This document shows, one piece after another, positions 45,508 to 60,079 of a DNA stretch of 64,000 nt (the first letter of the stretch is position 1; each line of letters begins with the position of its first letter). Under the pieces are notes generated by a model. It saw nothing but the letters and a program-made list of their open reading frames with translations, did no database searches and was not told where the DNA came from. Source of the stretch: a virus; the IMG/VR virus record IMGVR_UViG_3300036853_000134, positions 1 through 64,000 of that record; one strand, 5' to 3'. The translations under genes and the position numbers were made by a program.

Positions 45508-45854
45508 ACGGCTAACTCGTATCCATCATCGGTCGGACGAATAAATTTGACCGGCTTCTTATATTCATCGGCGATCAATATTTCCGCGCTGATACCTTTG
45601 GATTCCCGCCAACCATCAATCATCAGTATCCAAAGTTCGTCACAGCGGGATATGAATTCCGTATCGAACTTGCGCCAGAATCCCCAATCGCCGGGCATCA
45701 TGAACAAAACGGCTATTGGATGATTATGAACTATGGGCGAAAAAACGACCGTATCGTTTTGCGTATAGAACGCGACGCATTGAAGGGCGGCATGGTAGCG
45801 CGCCTCTCTTATGCCAGGGTCTTTGTGTGAGTATGGCGACGCAAGATAAATCAC
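45504..45854 (-). CDS. DUF1937 family protein (deoxyribosyltransferase-like fold)
   Basis: 116 residues from a GTG at 45854 that overlaps the upstream stop (GTGA). The family pattern is plain: MIYLASPYSHKDP, FSPIVHNHPIA, DWGFWRKFD, CDELWILMIDGW, S.G..AEI. The fold is related to nucleoside 2-deoxyribosyltransferases and nucleotide-binding proteins; the role in phages is not established, perhaps handling modified nucleotides. Confidence 0.85.
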   Translation of the reverse strand: MIYLASPYSHKDPGIREARYHAALQCVAFYTQNDTVVFSPIVHNHPIAVLFMMPGDWGFWRKFDTEFISRCDELWILMIDGWRESKGISAEILIADEYKKPVKFIRPTDDGYELAV

Positions 45855-48157
45855 GCGGTTTCCTCCATGTTCTCAATTCCGGCAAACAGCCCCTGAGCGC
45901 CAGACGCATAAATAGCGCGCTCCATATTCTTGCTGGCGGCTCTGAAATATTCCGGCTTTAATTCGCAGCCGATACCTTTGCGTCCAAGTAGCAGTGATTG
46001 ATAAACCTCAGTGCCAATACCAAGAAAAGGGGTCAGGACTATTTCACCGGGATTTGACCACAATCGCACGCACCTTTCAACGGTCTCTAATTGAAGTGGT
46101 GCAATATGTCGCTCATCCTCTTGCCCCCGACCTTCCGCCGCGCTCAACGTTGCGGTTTCTTTTATGTCGTACCAGACGGGATGCGCCCATTTGATCCATT
46201 GTTCGTGACTCACGTCGGGATGGATTGCAACTTCGTTTTCACCGGGCTTGTGGAATATCAGAATATAATCTGCAAGCGCAGGGCGCAGCCAGCTCGAATC
46301 TTTTCGCAACTGGACGAACATCAGGCTTTTCGATTTCGTTCTAATTGCCTGTGATTGCGGGTTCTTTTGTATACAAATCTCCCCATAATATATAAAGCCT
46401 TTGTCGATAAAATGCCTGATTGTTTCCCCGCGAAAATCCATCATTCCGATGTAACCGTCCCGACCCTTCATCATTGGGATTTGCGCGACGTGAACACACA
46501 TTGAGCGGCCGGGCTTGAGCACGCGGAGCATATTTGACGAGATGAATTGAAAGTGCTCCCAGAATTCCGTCATCGTTTTACAGTTACCCAGATCCCTTTC
46601 GGTTGCCGAATAAGTGAATAGCGACCCGAATGGCGGAGAGTAAACCGAAAGATCAATGGAATTGTCAGGCAGTCCCGCAAGCACTTCGCAGGAATCACCG
46701 TGATAGATTGAATAGTCGTCGCCGTGTTTCTGGTTCATCACCTGAACATCAGCCGCTTTGGTGCCGAGCCATTTTGGTATTTGCATTGGCTGTACCGCGT
46801 CGTAATCCAGACGCGTCGTAACTTGTCCAATTTCCGCTTTCTCAAATTCGGCAACGTGTTTGATTAGCTCTTTCGTCATCGTGTCCGCCTCTCTCTCTTT
46901 TCGCAAAACGTTATCAAAAATATCCATTTCAATATCGGTCAGCACAATATAAACATTGACCGGCCGTGTTTGACCGAATCGCCACTCGCGCCGGATACCC
47001 TGAAAATATTCCTCATAGCTGTCATTCATTCCAAGGAAGAGCATGCGCGCGGCCGATTGAAAGTTCATCCCCTGCCCGGCAATCTTAGGCTTACTTATCA
47101 TCGTCTTGACTTCGCCCCGACCGAAGCCCATCAGGGTTTCCGTTTTACGCTCGATTGAATCACTGCCCTGAACGTTGACCGCATTGCCCAGTGCTTTTGC
47201 CAGCGCATCAGCTTCATCGTTCAGTCCGCACCAAATCAGCCATTGCTCATCCGGTTCTCGCTGGATTATTTCGACGGCCGCCTTGACCCGCTCGGCGATT
47301 GTTGATTTACGGACCTTTGCGCGGTCACCTACACCATGCAGACGGGTCGGGAATAATTGCCCATCGGGAACATAAGTTGACGGGACGACAACGGGAATGA
47401 TGCTCAACTCCGGCAAATCATATCCAGTGTCATCATGTCCAATATCCGATGGCTTGAGCAGCGACATTGCCCAGGATGCAAGCCACTTGTGGAACGCATC
47501 ACGTCCATGTTTTTTCAATCGCCAGCCATCTTCGTCATGAACAAAAAACGTCGATAGCATTTCCGTTCGTGTCATCACGCCAAGGAATTCGGCATGGTTC
47601 GCAATCTCCGAGATATCATTAGGGGCAGGTGTGGCTGTACAGCAAAGACGCAGCGGAATTACAGAGCAAAGCTTTATCAGTAAAGATCGGCGTTTGCCTT
47701 CAAAATGCTTCAGGCAGCTTGATTCGTCCAGAACGACCGCGCCGAATTTCGACATATTGAAATGCTCAATCATCTCGTAATTGATAATCGTGATACCGGA
47801 TTCCGGCGACTCTTCCATCTTGCGCGCATACGTGACCTTGATGCCCCACCTCGCGCCTTCTTCAACAGTTTGATGAGCAACCGCAAGCGGAGCGATTACA
47901 AGCGAGCGTCGCGCGGCCAGTTCGGCCCAGGACAACTGCATAATCGTCTTGCCAAGGCCAGTGGTAGCGAAAAGCGCGGATCGTCCTTTACGCAGTGACC
48001 ATCGCACTAAATCACGTTGAAACGGAAATAGATTCTTATTTAAGTCAGCGGCGTCAACCTCAAATCCGGCCGCAGATGCAACGACAGCTTTCGTTGAAAG
48101 AAACTCTTGATAAGAACTTGATATTGCGTTAGATTGCTCAACAGGCATTTGATTCAC
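45851..48157 (-). CDS. Fused superfamily-2 helicase and DNA methyltransferase
   Basis: 768 residues. Helicase part (~1-450): Q-like FPFQRDLVRW, Walker A ATTGLGKT at ~64-71, a DESS (DExx) box in VVLDESSCLKHF, TATPAPND, and C-terminal motifs with PKIAGQGMNFQSA and QGIRREWRFGQTRPV. Methyltransferase part (~490-768): YSPPFGS (motif IV of N4-C/N6-A type) and LTPFLGIGTEV (motif I). Such fusions occur in environmental phages. It may translocate DNA and modify it, or act in replication/anti-restriction. No nuclease motif was seen. Confidence 0.85.
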   Translation of the reverse strand: MNQMPVEQSNAISSSYQEFLSTKAVVASAAGFEVDAADLNKNLFPFQRDLVRWSLRKGRSALFATTGLGKTIMQLSWAELAARRSLVIAPLAVAHQTVEEGARWGIKVTYARKMEESPESGITIINYEMIEHFNMSKFGAVVLDESSCLKHFEGKRRSLLIKLCSVIPLRLCCTATPAPNDISEIANHAEFLGVMTRTEMLSTFFVHDEDGWRLKKHGRDAFHKWLASWAMSLLKPSDIGHDDTGYDLPELSIIPVVVPSTYVPDGQLFPTRLHGVGDRAKVRKSTIAERVKAAVEIIQREPDEQWLIWCGLNDEADALAKALGNAVNVQGSDSIERKTETLMGFGRGEVKTMISKPKIAGQGMNFQSAARMLFLGMNDSYEEYFQGIRREWRFGQTRPVNVYIVLTDIEMDIFDNVLRKEREADTMTKELIKHVAEFEKAEIGQVTTRLDYDAVQPMQIPKWLGTKAADVQVMNQKHGDDYSIYHGDSCEVLAGLPDNSIDLSVYSPPFGSLFTYSATERDLGNCKTMTEFWEHFQFISSNMLRVLKPGRSMCVHVAQIPMMKGRDGYIGMMDFRGETIRHFIDKGFIYYGEICIQKNPQSQAIRTKSKSLMFVQLRKDSSWLRPALADYILIFHKPGENEVAIHPDVSHEQWIKWAHPVWYDIKETATLSAAEGRGQEDERHIAPLQLETVERCVRLWSNPGEIVLTPFLGIGTEVYQSLLLGRKGIGCELKPEYFRAASKNMERAIYASGAQGLFAGIENMEETA

Positions 48158-50192: not shown

Positions 50193-50870
50193 CTATTGCG
50201 GCGAATACCTGGCCGCGAATCTTAAAACTGCGTGAAATTGTCCCTTTTCCAGCATTGCAATCTTCCGCTCTTCACGCTGTCGAAGTTTTTCATACCCGGC
50301 GTTTAGGTTGACGAATGTAATCTCTTTCGGTTTCTTCGACTTTGAGACCTGCTCTTTAAACCGGTCTAGTCGCTTTCGCTTGCCCTTGAGCACGCCAAAC
50401 TTTAAGCATCTGCGAATCCGTTTCGTTTCTCTCGCCAGATACCTATCACGCATCCGCTGCCATTCGACTGGATGGATATGGGCGAACCGCTTAAATTGCC
50501 AGTCGCGTGCGTTTTGCTCATCTTCGGTTTGAAGCGTTTTTATGTAGGTCAGCAGCGTAAGAAGCTCATTCTCTCTTTCGATTTCATAAAAGAGAATGCC
50601 ATGCTTTGAGCATAGATCGCGCTTCTGCTTATCAACAGAAAGCTGGCGCTTAAACCCCTCAATATCTTTGTGGAAAAACGGATTGTATTGTGAATGCTGG
50701 ACGCCTTGAACCTCTACCGCGATTCTTAAATCTTCGATATATAAGTCAAGTTCCATAGGCTTGCCTAGGTCGGATTTGAGCCAGTCAAAACGGTGATTTT
50801 CTTTGACTACCAAACCCTCGATACAATTAAGACGGCGCGTGGCTTCTTCTTGTAATTTGGAACTTCCCAA
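50193..50870 (-). CDS. PD-(D/E)XK-type nuclease
   Basis: 225 residues from a TTG at 50870 (GGAGG nine bases upstream). MELDLYIEDLRIAVEVQGVQ gives D, then E-x-Q as the catalytic core, followed by F...Q...D..K...C, the pattern of very-short-patch-repair/restriction-like nucleases. The C-terminal half is a basic helix region (RRCLKFGVLKGKRKRLDRF). It may cut host DNA or act in recombination. Its ribosome site lies against an unusual repeat element (50881-50987). Confidence 0.75.
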   Translation of the reverse strand: MGSSKLQEEATRRLNCIEGLVVKENHRFDWLKSDLGKPMELDLYIEDLRIAVEVQGVQHSQYNPFFHKDIEGFKRQLSVDKQKRDLCSKHGILFYEIERENELLTLLTYIKTLQTEDEQNARDWQFKRFAHIHPVEWQRMRDRYLARETKRIRRCLKFGVLKGKRKRLDRFKEQVSKSKKPKEITFVNLNAGYEKLRQREERKIAMLEKGQFHAVLRFAARYSPQ

Positions 50871-50880
50871 ATTGAAAAAC

Positions 50881-50987
50881 CTCCGAACTTTATTCAGGCG
50901 GTGCGGTGAACGTGAACAGTTGCGTGGTTAATGCAAAAGCCCGCGTCCGCCTGAATAAAATCCAGAGGTCGTCGGAGTTCACGTTCA
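50881..50987 (-). promoter_or_regulatory. Interleaved inverted repeats (pseudoknot-like element)
   Basis: Two perfect inverted repeats interleave in the order A-B-A'-B': TTTATTCAGGCGG (50889-50901) with CCGCCTGAATAAA (50947-50959), 13 bases, and TGAACGTGAAC (50907-50917) with GTTCACGTTCA (50977-50987), 11 bases. A third pair, CTCCGA (50881-50886) with TCGGAG (50972-50977), includes the ribosome site of the nuclease gene. As RNA this is a pseudoknot just before the start codon; as DNA it could be an origin or operator. A 30-codon GTG frame (50890-50982) lies within it. Confidence 0.65.
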
Positions 50988-51039
50988 GACTGTGCCCGAC
51001 CGGAACCACCCGATCAGTATCCCTTTCAGGACTCCCCTA

Positions 51040-51048
51040 TTATCCACA
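51040..51048 (+). promoter_or_regulatory. DnaA box
   Basis: TTATCCACA, the consensus DnaA site, alone in the 233-base non-coding stretch 50871-51103, beside the interleaved repeats and close to replication genes. A candidate origin component; a single box is weak evidence. Confidence 0.4.
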
Positions 51049-51103
51049 AAACCGCATTCCCGCGCAACAGAAAAGTAGCGTCAGCCCAATTTATCGCGGG
51101 CGG

Positions 51104-51373
51104 TTAGTCGTTTTTCGGCGTTCCTTTGATTTTCCAATGCTCATCGCGAAATATTCCTACGAACGGCTTCTCGATTGGCAGTCTATTCACAACCTCTTGC
51201 AGCTTCGATCCAATGGATTCATCGCGGTATCGAATCGCCATCCGCCGCAGATACAGCCACCTGTCGTCTTCTCTGCCTTCCACGGACAACCGCAACGCGT
51301 GGAACAGATCGGTTAGTATTTTCTGGCGGCGTGATTCGTGGCCGTCCTCAATGAATTTACTTTCCTTTGGCAT
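51104..51373 (-). CDS. 89-residue protein, function unknown
   Basis: From the ATG at 51373 (GGGAG six bases upstream; a start at 51406 rejected). Charged helices (RQKILTDLFHALRLSVEGRE, RWLYLRRMAIRYRDE). The TAATG overlap couples it to the next upstream gene. No family was recognised. Confidence 0.6.
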   Translation of the reverse strand: MPKESKFIEDGHESRRQKILTDLFHALRLSVEGREDDRWLYLRRMAIRYRDESIGSKLQEVVNRLPIEKPFVGIFRDEHWKIKGTPKND

Positions 51374-54016: not shown

Positions 54017-54568
54017 TCAGCGCTCCAGTGCCTCCCTTTTTCCGTTAAACCGCCCCGTCGTCAGGTCGTTTTGCACTTTACCCGTTCTCTTTCGCTCTCT
54101 GTGATAATGGCACCTTGAGCAAACCGCTTGCACGTCCTCGTGGTGAATTGCAGCATACCCAAGGTAGTGGTCGTATTCGTGGCGACGACCACCGGGAGCG
54201 TATTGATGCCCGCAGTCCACACAAGGAAGATTATCCGGATCATCCAATATCCCCGCATGGACAAAATAATTAATACGTCCTCGTGCTTGCTTTCTATCGC
54301 CATCACGGGCCGGAACAAAAGCACGGCCTTTTTCTGGGCGATTCCTTTTTACATATCTGAGACGATGCTTGATATTTCTGCCATCCCGGCAGCCCACCGC
54401 AAGGCCATCACTGCGCGATGAGTCTCTTCCGAAAGACTCTTTCGGGTGCCAGCGCTTGCAGGCTACACACCATTTATTACCAGCGTCCAGATTGCGCCTA
54501 TATTGTTGCTCAGTGGTTCCCAGCAGCCTAGCCGCCGACTTGATCGCCCCGTCGCGTGTTTGCGCCAT
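54017..54568 (-). CDS. HNH-type endonuclease with extra zinc motif
   Basis: 183 residues. N-terminal CVACKRWHPKESFGRD (a zinc ribbon with CxxC), then the HNH-like core CVDCGH...RHEYDHYLGY, AVCSRCHYHRERKRTG. Basic throughout. It is probably a homing or packaging-associated nuclease; it is free-standing, not in an intron. Confidence 0.75.
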   Translation of the reverse strand: MAQTRDGAIKSAARLLGTTEQQYRRNLDAGNKWCVACKRWHPKESFGRDSSRSDGLAVGCRDGRNIKHRLRYVKRNRPEKGRAFVPARDGDRKQARGRINYFVHAGILDDPDNLPCVDCGHQYAPGGRRHEYDHYLGYAAIHHEDVQAVCSRCHYHRERKRTGKVQNDLTTGRFNGKREALER

Positions 54569-59521: not shown

Positions 59522-60079
59522 GTGGCAGTTTCAAAAAAAATAATAGAACAGCCGACGATCAAAGAAATGCTGGTTAAGCTATGGTCGGTTGCGGCAGCGC
59601 AGCCAGGGTACGATTCCATCGCTTGGCGTCAATTTCAAGGCGCTCTGGTAAAAGCCGGGATCAAGCCACTTGTCATCACAGACGATGATATTAAGTCTGG
59701 TGCGGCTGTTGAATTGCCGATTATCAGAAAGAAGATTCGCGGGCTTTGCTATACACACGCAGAGATTAATTTGCCGGAAGTTCAAGCGTTGCGAGCGATG
59801 CCGTATAGACAGTATCTTACAACTGCCCACTGGAAAGCCGTTAGAGAAAGGGCGATTCGTGAGGCAAACGGCGAATGCAGAATGTGCGGCCATTCGAGAA
59901 AACTAATCGGGCACCATCAGAACTATGATTTTGTGGGATGCGAAGAAAGCAAGGATGTGATCGCAATTTGTAATGGCTGTCACGAAAAACATCACGGAAA
60001 GAGCAAGCGCAAGAGAAGGCTATTCAATCGGAAATCACGCGGCGATTATTACGGACTTACGCGACAGTCTGATATTTGA
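59522..60079 (+). CDS. HNH endonuclease
   Basis: 185 residues from a GTG at 59522 (GGAG eight bases upstream). C-terminal HNH: CRMCGHSRKLIGHHQNYDF, then VIAICNGCHEKHHG, with a basic tail (KSKRKRRLFNRKSRG). The N-terminal ~100 residues are helix-rich and could bind DNA. First gene after the long leader. Probably a free-standing homing nuclease. Confidence 0.8.
   Translation: MAVSKKIIEQPTIKEMLVKLWSVAAAQPGYDSIAWRQFQGALVKAGIKPLVITDDDIKSGAAVELPIIRKKIRGLCYTHAEINLPEVQALRAMPYRQYLTTAHWKAVRERAIREANGECRMCGHSRKLIGHHQNYDFVGCEESKDVIAICNGCHEKHHGKSKRKRRLFNRKSRGDYYGLTRQSDI

Follow-up and report, generated by a model that had tools for sequence, protein, structure and literature searches.

The locus

The DNA analysed here, referred to as the window, is a 64,000-nucleotide stretch of a 66,935-base virus record. 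Within it, two interleaved inverted repeats lie at 50881-51048, immediately upstream of a minus-strand nuclease gene, and both the 13- and the 11-base repeats described in the first-pass annotation are found where it placed them. The 11-nt arms (50907-50917 and 50977-50987) are 100% complementary; the 13-nt perfect arms (50889-50901 and 50947-50959) are nested in 23-nt arms which are 87% complementary as DNA. All three DNA mismatches of this outer repeat are G·U pairs in minus-strand RNA and A·C on the plus strand. Together with one further G·U pair they complete an unbroken outer helix of 24 bp (20 Watson-Crick and 4 G·U pairs, 50970-50947 with 50901-50878). As the neighbouring genes lie on the minus strand according to the open reading frame list and PHROG matches, the element was read as minus-strand RNA. 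This RNA, on the same strand as the nuclease gene, is the functional unit of the interleaved repeats. Along it, the following features are found from 5' to 3':

51062-51067, minus strand: candidate -35 box (TTGCGC) of a leader promoter, the best consensus site upstream of the RNA
51039-51044, minus strand: candidate -10 box (GATAAT), overlapping a DnaA-like box at 51040-51048; not significant alone
50977-50987, minus strand: A, the 5' strand of the 11-bp helix
50947-50970, minus strand: B, the 5' strand of the 24-bp helix
50918-50946, minus strand: part of the loop, from B to A', where the predicted fold places a small hairpin
50907-50917, minus strand: A', the 3' strand of the 11-bp helix, within the B:B' loop
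50878-50901, minus strand: B', the 3' strand of the 24-bp helix, holding the Shine-Dalgarno sequence
50879-50884, minus strand: Shine-Dalgarno sequence GGAGGT, 8 nt 5' of the start codon and paired in B:B'
50875-50879, minus strand: five consecutive T where B:B' ends, terminator-like
50854-50873, minus strand: 7-bp hairpin AATTTGG-GAAGTT-CCAAATT over the TTG start codon, from sequence and centroid fold
50193-50870, minus strand: Vsr-like homing endonuclease gene with TTG start, 225 aa, from PHROG and ME3_68 matches

The loop between B and B' measures 45 nt. In the predicted folds, the stretch from A to A' reaches -29.6 kcal/mol with A:A' formed and the stretch from B to B' -47.1 kcal/mol, and the Shine-Dalgarno region has a mean unpaired probability of 0.07. 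The start-codon hairpin (AATTTGG/CCAAATT) comes right after the long B:B' helix. The candidate promoter, with a 17-nt spacer, is weak (shuffle p 0.146), and a standard terminator scan listed nothing at B:B' of the window.

On neither strand of the 64 kb is there a helix longer than this one of 24 bp, the next having 16 bp. None of 400 Markov-simulated 64-kb sequences reached a helix of 24 (largest 21), and none contained interleaved Watson-Crick helices that were both at least 11 bp long (largest 10). The earlier judgement that the arrangement is not due to chance is thus borne out for the single helix as well as for the interleaved pair.

The nuclease and its phage

The nuclease matches the homing endonuclease family phrog_9084 (2e-8) as well as phrog_559 (2.1e-11), and aligns at 52% over 52 aa with the "homing nuclease" ME3_68 of Acinetobacter phage ME3. 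ME3_68 lies within a split gene, flanked by its parts, and its annotation points to a relationship with a nuclease of phage 0305phi8-36, which we take to be I-Bth0305I. The homology to I-Bth0305I-like or EDxHD homing endonucleases lies in the N-terminal 100 residues; in contrast to these, the window nuclease belongs to a subfamily of its own with a different C-terminal part. No Pfam or NCBIfam model matched it at cut-off. A match to designed PPR proteins falls in a charged stretch of the C-terminal part and was put down to composition, and the single-sequence structure prediction was poor (mean pLDDT 51.9) and was not used for a fold search. Judged by its sequence, the gene is a Vsr-like (EDxHD), free-standing phage homing endonuclease, with homing and cutting as predicted activities. 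EDxHD/Vsr-like homing endonucleases occur in phage introns (PMC12350094).

No close relatives of the phage were found by DNA among named phages, nor through the nuclease and its neighbouring proteins in viral contigs or genomes; the helicase-methylase and the terminase have distant relatives only. Three further genes of the window can be recorded here. A 768-aa frame at 45851-48157 (minus strand) fuses a helicase and a DNA methyltransferase (phrog_16, phrog_67), which are often two genes in relatives from named phages. The HNH/endonuclease VII-like gene at 54017-54568 (minus strand) is a possible further homing endonuclease; scanning the window gave no strong crossed leader ahead of this gene. 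At 59522-60079 (plus strand), a weak match to an IscB model, with 16.5 bits where 175 is the cut-off, is probably a mere HNH-like stretch.

The same layout before related nucleases

Relatives of the nuclease were gathered by alignment-based scans. The closest relative of the first scan (L030, 49% over 71 aa) carries an A-B-A'-B' arrangement immediately 5' of its start codon, in letters entirely different from those of the window. Overall, the layout is present in 11 of the 14 distinct subfamily members scored (the window, L030, L110, L114, L146, L147, L148, L150, L151, L154 and L155) and absent from L111, L152 and L153; copies of L030 (L112, L113) and of L148 (L149) were counted once. Its recurrence before ten distinct related nucleases, together with a G·U bias, supports the earlier reading of an RNA in pseudoknot order that includes the nuclease ribosome site. 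Every source that carries the RNA is a metagenomic virus contig.

In 260-nt upstream regions, 0 of 60 shuffles reached the observed score for each of the 11 leaders. With B:B' held fixed, A:A' was better than in shuffles in 10 of 11 (p 0.001 to 0.027; combined p 2.7e-13); for L154 the p value was 0.30 with the weak A found by the script, a longer split A being a hand reading. The crossing of the helices in A-B-A'-B' order is beyond chance. A further 166 loci had a nuclease match, and within 1500 nt upstream of it none of them contained a crossed pair scoring above 63; the pairs at 63 lay about 1 kb or more away, that of L033 within another frame. In a protein tree of 60 rows, which has few columns and leaves many forks unresolved, the RNA-bearing members fall into one supported group of 19 rows (11 with the RNA and 8 without). 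The N-terminus of the subfamily reads M-x-[ST]-S-[KR]-LQ or similar. Two members without the RNA, L152 and L111, have a TATAAT-type site near the nuclease start codon; in L152 it is 7 nt from this codon, perhaps indicating a leaderless message.

The leaders of L030, L112 and L113 are identical to each other, as are those of L148 and L149, and between all other pairs there is no local alignment of score 34 or more and no detectable sequence similarity. As leaders were either identical or unalignable, no covariance model was built. Across the set, B:B' comprises 13-34 bp and the B-B' loop about 19-53 nt. Since the helices stay paired while their letters differ, it is the pairing which is kept and not the sequence. 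Relatives with unpaired substitutions, which the first-pass annotation had named as evidence against the element, are the opposite of what is seen: every partner sequence differs and pairing is preserved. The leader class is defined by the order of its helices, A-B-A'-B', not by sequence.

Selection at the RNA level

G·U and A·C positions allow RNA and DNA pairing to be told apart, and both were penalised equally in counting B:B'. Over all 11 helices this gave 242 Watson-Crick pairs, 31 G·U and 4 A·C positions, and 5 of other kinds (p 1.7e-6). This excess of G·U over A·C, 31:4, implies that selection acts on the sense-strand RNA. A hand-summed count over nine of ten further leaders described below (G005 not included) gives 23 G·U against 2 A·C, from a scan which itself favoured G·U.

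Leaders beyond one nuclease family

When both strands of 1.22 Mb were scanned as background, the layout also turned up ahead of other genes in these phages; from the 19 matches, L014 was dropped for its tandem repeats and the opposite-strand matches at L147, L150 and L154 as mirror images. In the whole contigs of leader-bearing phages, ten further leaders were identified. They precede nucleases of the HNH_3, HNH, GIY-YIG and HNH/HNH_5 types, an HNH-like protein with a sub-cut-off match only, a Phage_rep_O protein, a replication-initiator-like protein (about 41-43% over its N-terminal part against phage DnaD/replication initiation proteins) and three unknown proteins.

In simulated sequence of the same composition (6 strands of 420,774 bases), 31 matches scored at least 58 and none above 66.5. 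The real contigs gave 27 matches above 66.5; sorted by hand, 17 of these were leaders in sense orientation, 8 were their mirror images and 2 were unrelated. Among all 54 matches of the contig scan, the weaker and coding-region ones as well as G007 +2637 and G006 +24075 were left out of the leader count; it does include G003 +2914, which equals the simulated maximum (66.5), and the L148 leader at G006 +30507 (65.5), which falls below it. Stretches of six named phages (T4 1-50000, LUZ24, Vibrio 1.191.O, ctkAd229, RBC57 and Mx9) yielded no convincing leader. The GC-rich RBC57 and Mx9 gave many coding-region matches in the same score range, which means that the scan does not discriminate at high G+C.

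Some of the further leaders have letters in common. L209 (G003 54342-54455) and L214 (G005, about 1289-1179), which precede HNH genes in different phages, have CCCTTTGGCCGGGG in common upstream of A as well as apparent extra outer pairings, and are a possible alignable pair for covariation. L207 (2914) and L210 (G003 67519), before an HNH and a GIY-YIG gene of one phage, both start with TGTCACCCAAA, and several other leaders start with TGTC; this perhaps reflects a start-site preference or an exchange of leaders between unrelated genes.

Shared parts of the leaders

Ten of the 11 nuclease leaders have at least five T among the 8 nt that follow B', the exception being L030 (3 of 8), and eight of the ten further leaders have at least six. 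The Shine-Dalgarno sequence lies within B' in the window, L110 and L114 only and partly so in L030; in the other seven it comes after the T-run. With the Shine-Dalgarno sequence outside B' in most leaders, masking cannot be the function that they share. Nor is there a trend towards it among more distant relatives (p 0.61 for accessibility, comparing 15 nucleases with a clear Shine-Dalgarno sequence with 34 control genes). What the leaders have in common is that their last helix is terminator-like, and masking of the ribosome site is a local extra.

Sigma70-like promoter sites beat shuffles (p 0.02 or less) before 7 of the 11 nuclease leaders and in 8 of the 10 further ones. In six of the latter ten the promoter-like site ends 0-5 nt 5' of A. 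The transcript would then begin with A or only just before it, and such a free end could be threaded into the loop.

When the growing RNA is folded without pseudoknots, A:A' reaches at least 0.83 once A' has emerged in 9 of 11 leaders, or in 10 with a hand-picked A for L114. At full length, likewise without pseudoknots, B:B' reaches 0.79-0.99 in 10 of 11, with L148 at 0.55. By a rough length estimate, eight of the 11 leaders have linkers that would let the two full helices coexist, and those of L146, L150 and L154 look too short.

A model for leader function

These data point towards a cis-acting, pseudoknot-capable leader whose terminator-like last helix throttles a selfish homing endonuclease gene, a reading to which we assign a probability of roughly 0.55. 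Transcription would start upstream of or at A, from the leader's own promoter, and in the nascent RNA A would pair with A' first. As B' emerges, the longer B:B' helix would form beside the U run and most transcripts would end there by attenuation. In this phage, B:B' would also lock the Shine-Dalgarno sequence so that leaked transcripts are poorly translated, and the 7-bp hairpin would additionally cover the start codon. With attenuation and masking combined, the nuclease would be made only at a low level, by leakage, from its own cassette. Least certain in this scheme is what A:A' does: it may hold back B:B', giving more read-through, or lock the pseudoknot, giving less. We infer termination, translational masking and this order of folding in the cell, and likewise the benefit of keeping a DNA-cutting selfish gene quiet.

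Comparison with known leaders

The T4-type leaders are among the nearest known systems. The T4 genes e, soc, 49 and I-TevI, as well as mobE and segB, have proven or supposed leaders masking the ribosome site (PMC3014915). Those of homing endonucleases (I-TevI, I-TevII, I-TevIII, Aeh1 mobE and T4 segB) are likewise structured and directly 5' of the phage gene, and a paired ribosome site is also found in the window, L110 and L114. However, the T4-type helices are described as surrounding the start site, whereas B:B' here has 13-34 bp and is crossed by A:A'; unlike the T4-type leaders, those described here often end in a T-run and have a promoter-like site of their own upstream. Eight T4 genes were checked and lack the crossed A-B-A'-B' layout; their best helices score 19-31 and their best crossed pair at most 48.5, against helix scores of at least 47 in 10 of our 11 leaders.

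Intrinsic terminators and attenuator leaders likewise have a stable stem and a U-run before the coding region with a promoter upstream. Yet their short loop of 3-8 nt contrasts with the B-B' loop of about 19-53 nt, which holds A', and the partner of A' here lies 5' of the stem; the leaders showed neither a leader peptide nor a ligand motif. H-type pseudoknot leaders such as the T4 gene 32 operator have the same A-B-A'-B' order, with the loop of the second helix pairing outside, but their helices are far shorter; the leaders here also differ in having no conserved sequence and are putative pseudoknots. No Rfam family, including HEARO/IscB RNA and group I/II introns, matched the window or 8 related loci at curated threshold. 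The best permissive match, to a microRNA model, was set aside as chance. The A-B-A'-B' layout before homing endonucleases was not described in the titles and opening parts of abstracts found, a partial coverage of the literature.

Alternative explanations

The ToxIN system also consists of a pseudoknot RNA, a terminator-like helix and then a nuclease gene, an order that resembles the leaders here. The leader could therefore end up as a separate stable small RNA partnering the nuclease, likened to type III RNA antitoxins or IscB/TnpB guide RNAs, with its 5' end tied in A:A', its 3' end set by the terminator and the protein made by read-through. The order of promoter, pseudoknot-order RNA, terminator-like helix and nuclease gene fits this, as does the position of A at the transcript start in several leaders. 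We nevertheless consider it unlikely: unlike type III toxin-antitoxin systems, the leaders have neither tandem repeats nor a conserved RNA motif in the loop, words above shuffles being either rich in T or GGTTTT-like and 3'-terminal, and the proteins match homing endonucleases. A guide function was discarded, as the longest RNA-to-flank match of 9-11 nt is the same as for shuffled RNA, so that no flank match exceeds chance. Furthermore, a single RNA partner would hardly fit a layout found before proteins as unrelated as Vsr-like, HNH and GIY-YIG nucleases and replication genes. A pure translational switch of the T4 type, in which read-through transcripts have their ribosome site buried in the long helix and translation takes place on a transcript that begins in the loop, is about as improbable. 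It is known for I-TevI and mobE (PMC3014915), and in the window GGAGGT lies in B' within a region only 0.07 unpaired; against this, most family members have their Shine-Dalgarno sequence outside B', and the loop that separates B from B' in the window showed no sigma70-type promoter.

Less probable still is that the nuclease gene inserts behind terminators, with B:B' as a target site and not a part of the cassette. Each B:B' does have its own sequence, and some mobile introns insert after intrinsic terminators (PMC12350094), but promoter-like sites lie between the previous gene and A, the upstream neighbour of L030 appears to be oppositely oriented, and the crossed A:A' helix is left unexplained. 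The least probable alternative is an element acting as DNA, either a replication origin, as had been proposed from the DnaA box and the neighbouring replication genes, or an inverted-repeat protein site. Replication genes are indeed close in the window, two other leaders precede replication genes, and a perfect DnaA-like box, TTATCCACA, does lie nearby at 51040-51048. However, such boxes occur at chance level (3 perfect ones in the window against 3.6 expected; 15 with one mismatch against 10.5 expected, reached by 12 of 100 shuffles), and a DnaA-dependent origin was rejected for want of a box cluster. Direct repeats at the element amount to one 8-nt pair, 333 nt apart, and no repeat family. 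The sense-strand bias of 31:4 and the recurrence of the layout elsewhere before nucleases, among them non-replication nucleases such as GIY-YIG, also speak against a DNA element. The short GTG frame once suggested as a leader peptide (50906-51316) is on the plus strand, opposite to the nuclease, and the suggestion was dropped.

Implications

Homing endonucleases need to be expressed and yet must not harm their carrier, and the leader-RNA control of these enzymes that was found described comes from T4-like phages. Here, unrelated nuclease families in uncultured phages have one leader layout without a common sequence, which points to exchange or to convergence on a simple folding device. More broadly, and at slightly under even odds, the leaders may represent a class of phage RNA defined by topology only, in which A at the 5' end pairs into the loop of a following terminator-like B:B' helix of 13-34 bp. 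Such an RNA would form part of a cassette of promoter, RNA and gene used by unrelated Vsr-like, HNH and GIY-YIG selfish genes and by some replication genes, with the order of folding and not a bound ligand setting the fraction of read-through. As no sequence is conserved, alignment-based RNA discovery would miss this class, and the leaders point to structured RNAs that are invisible to covariation searches.
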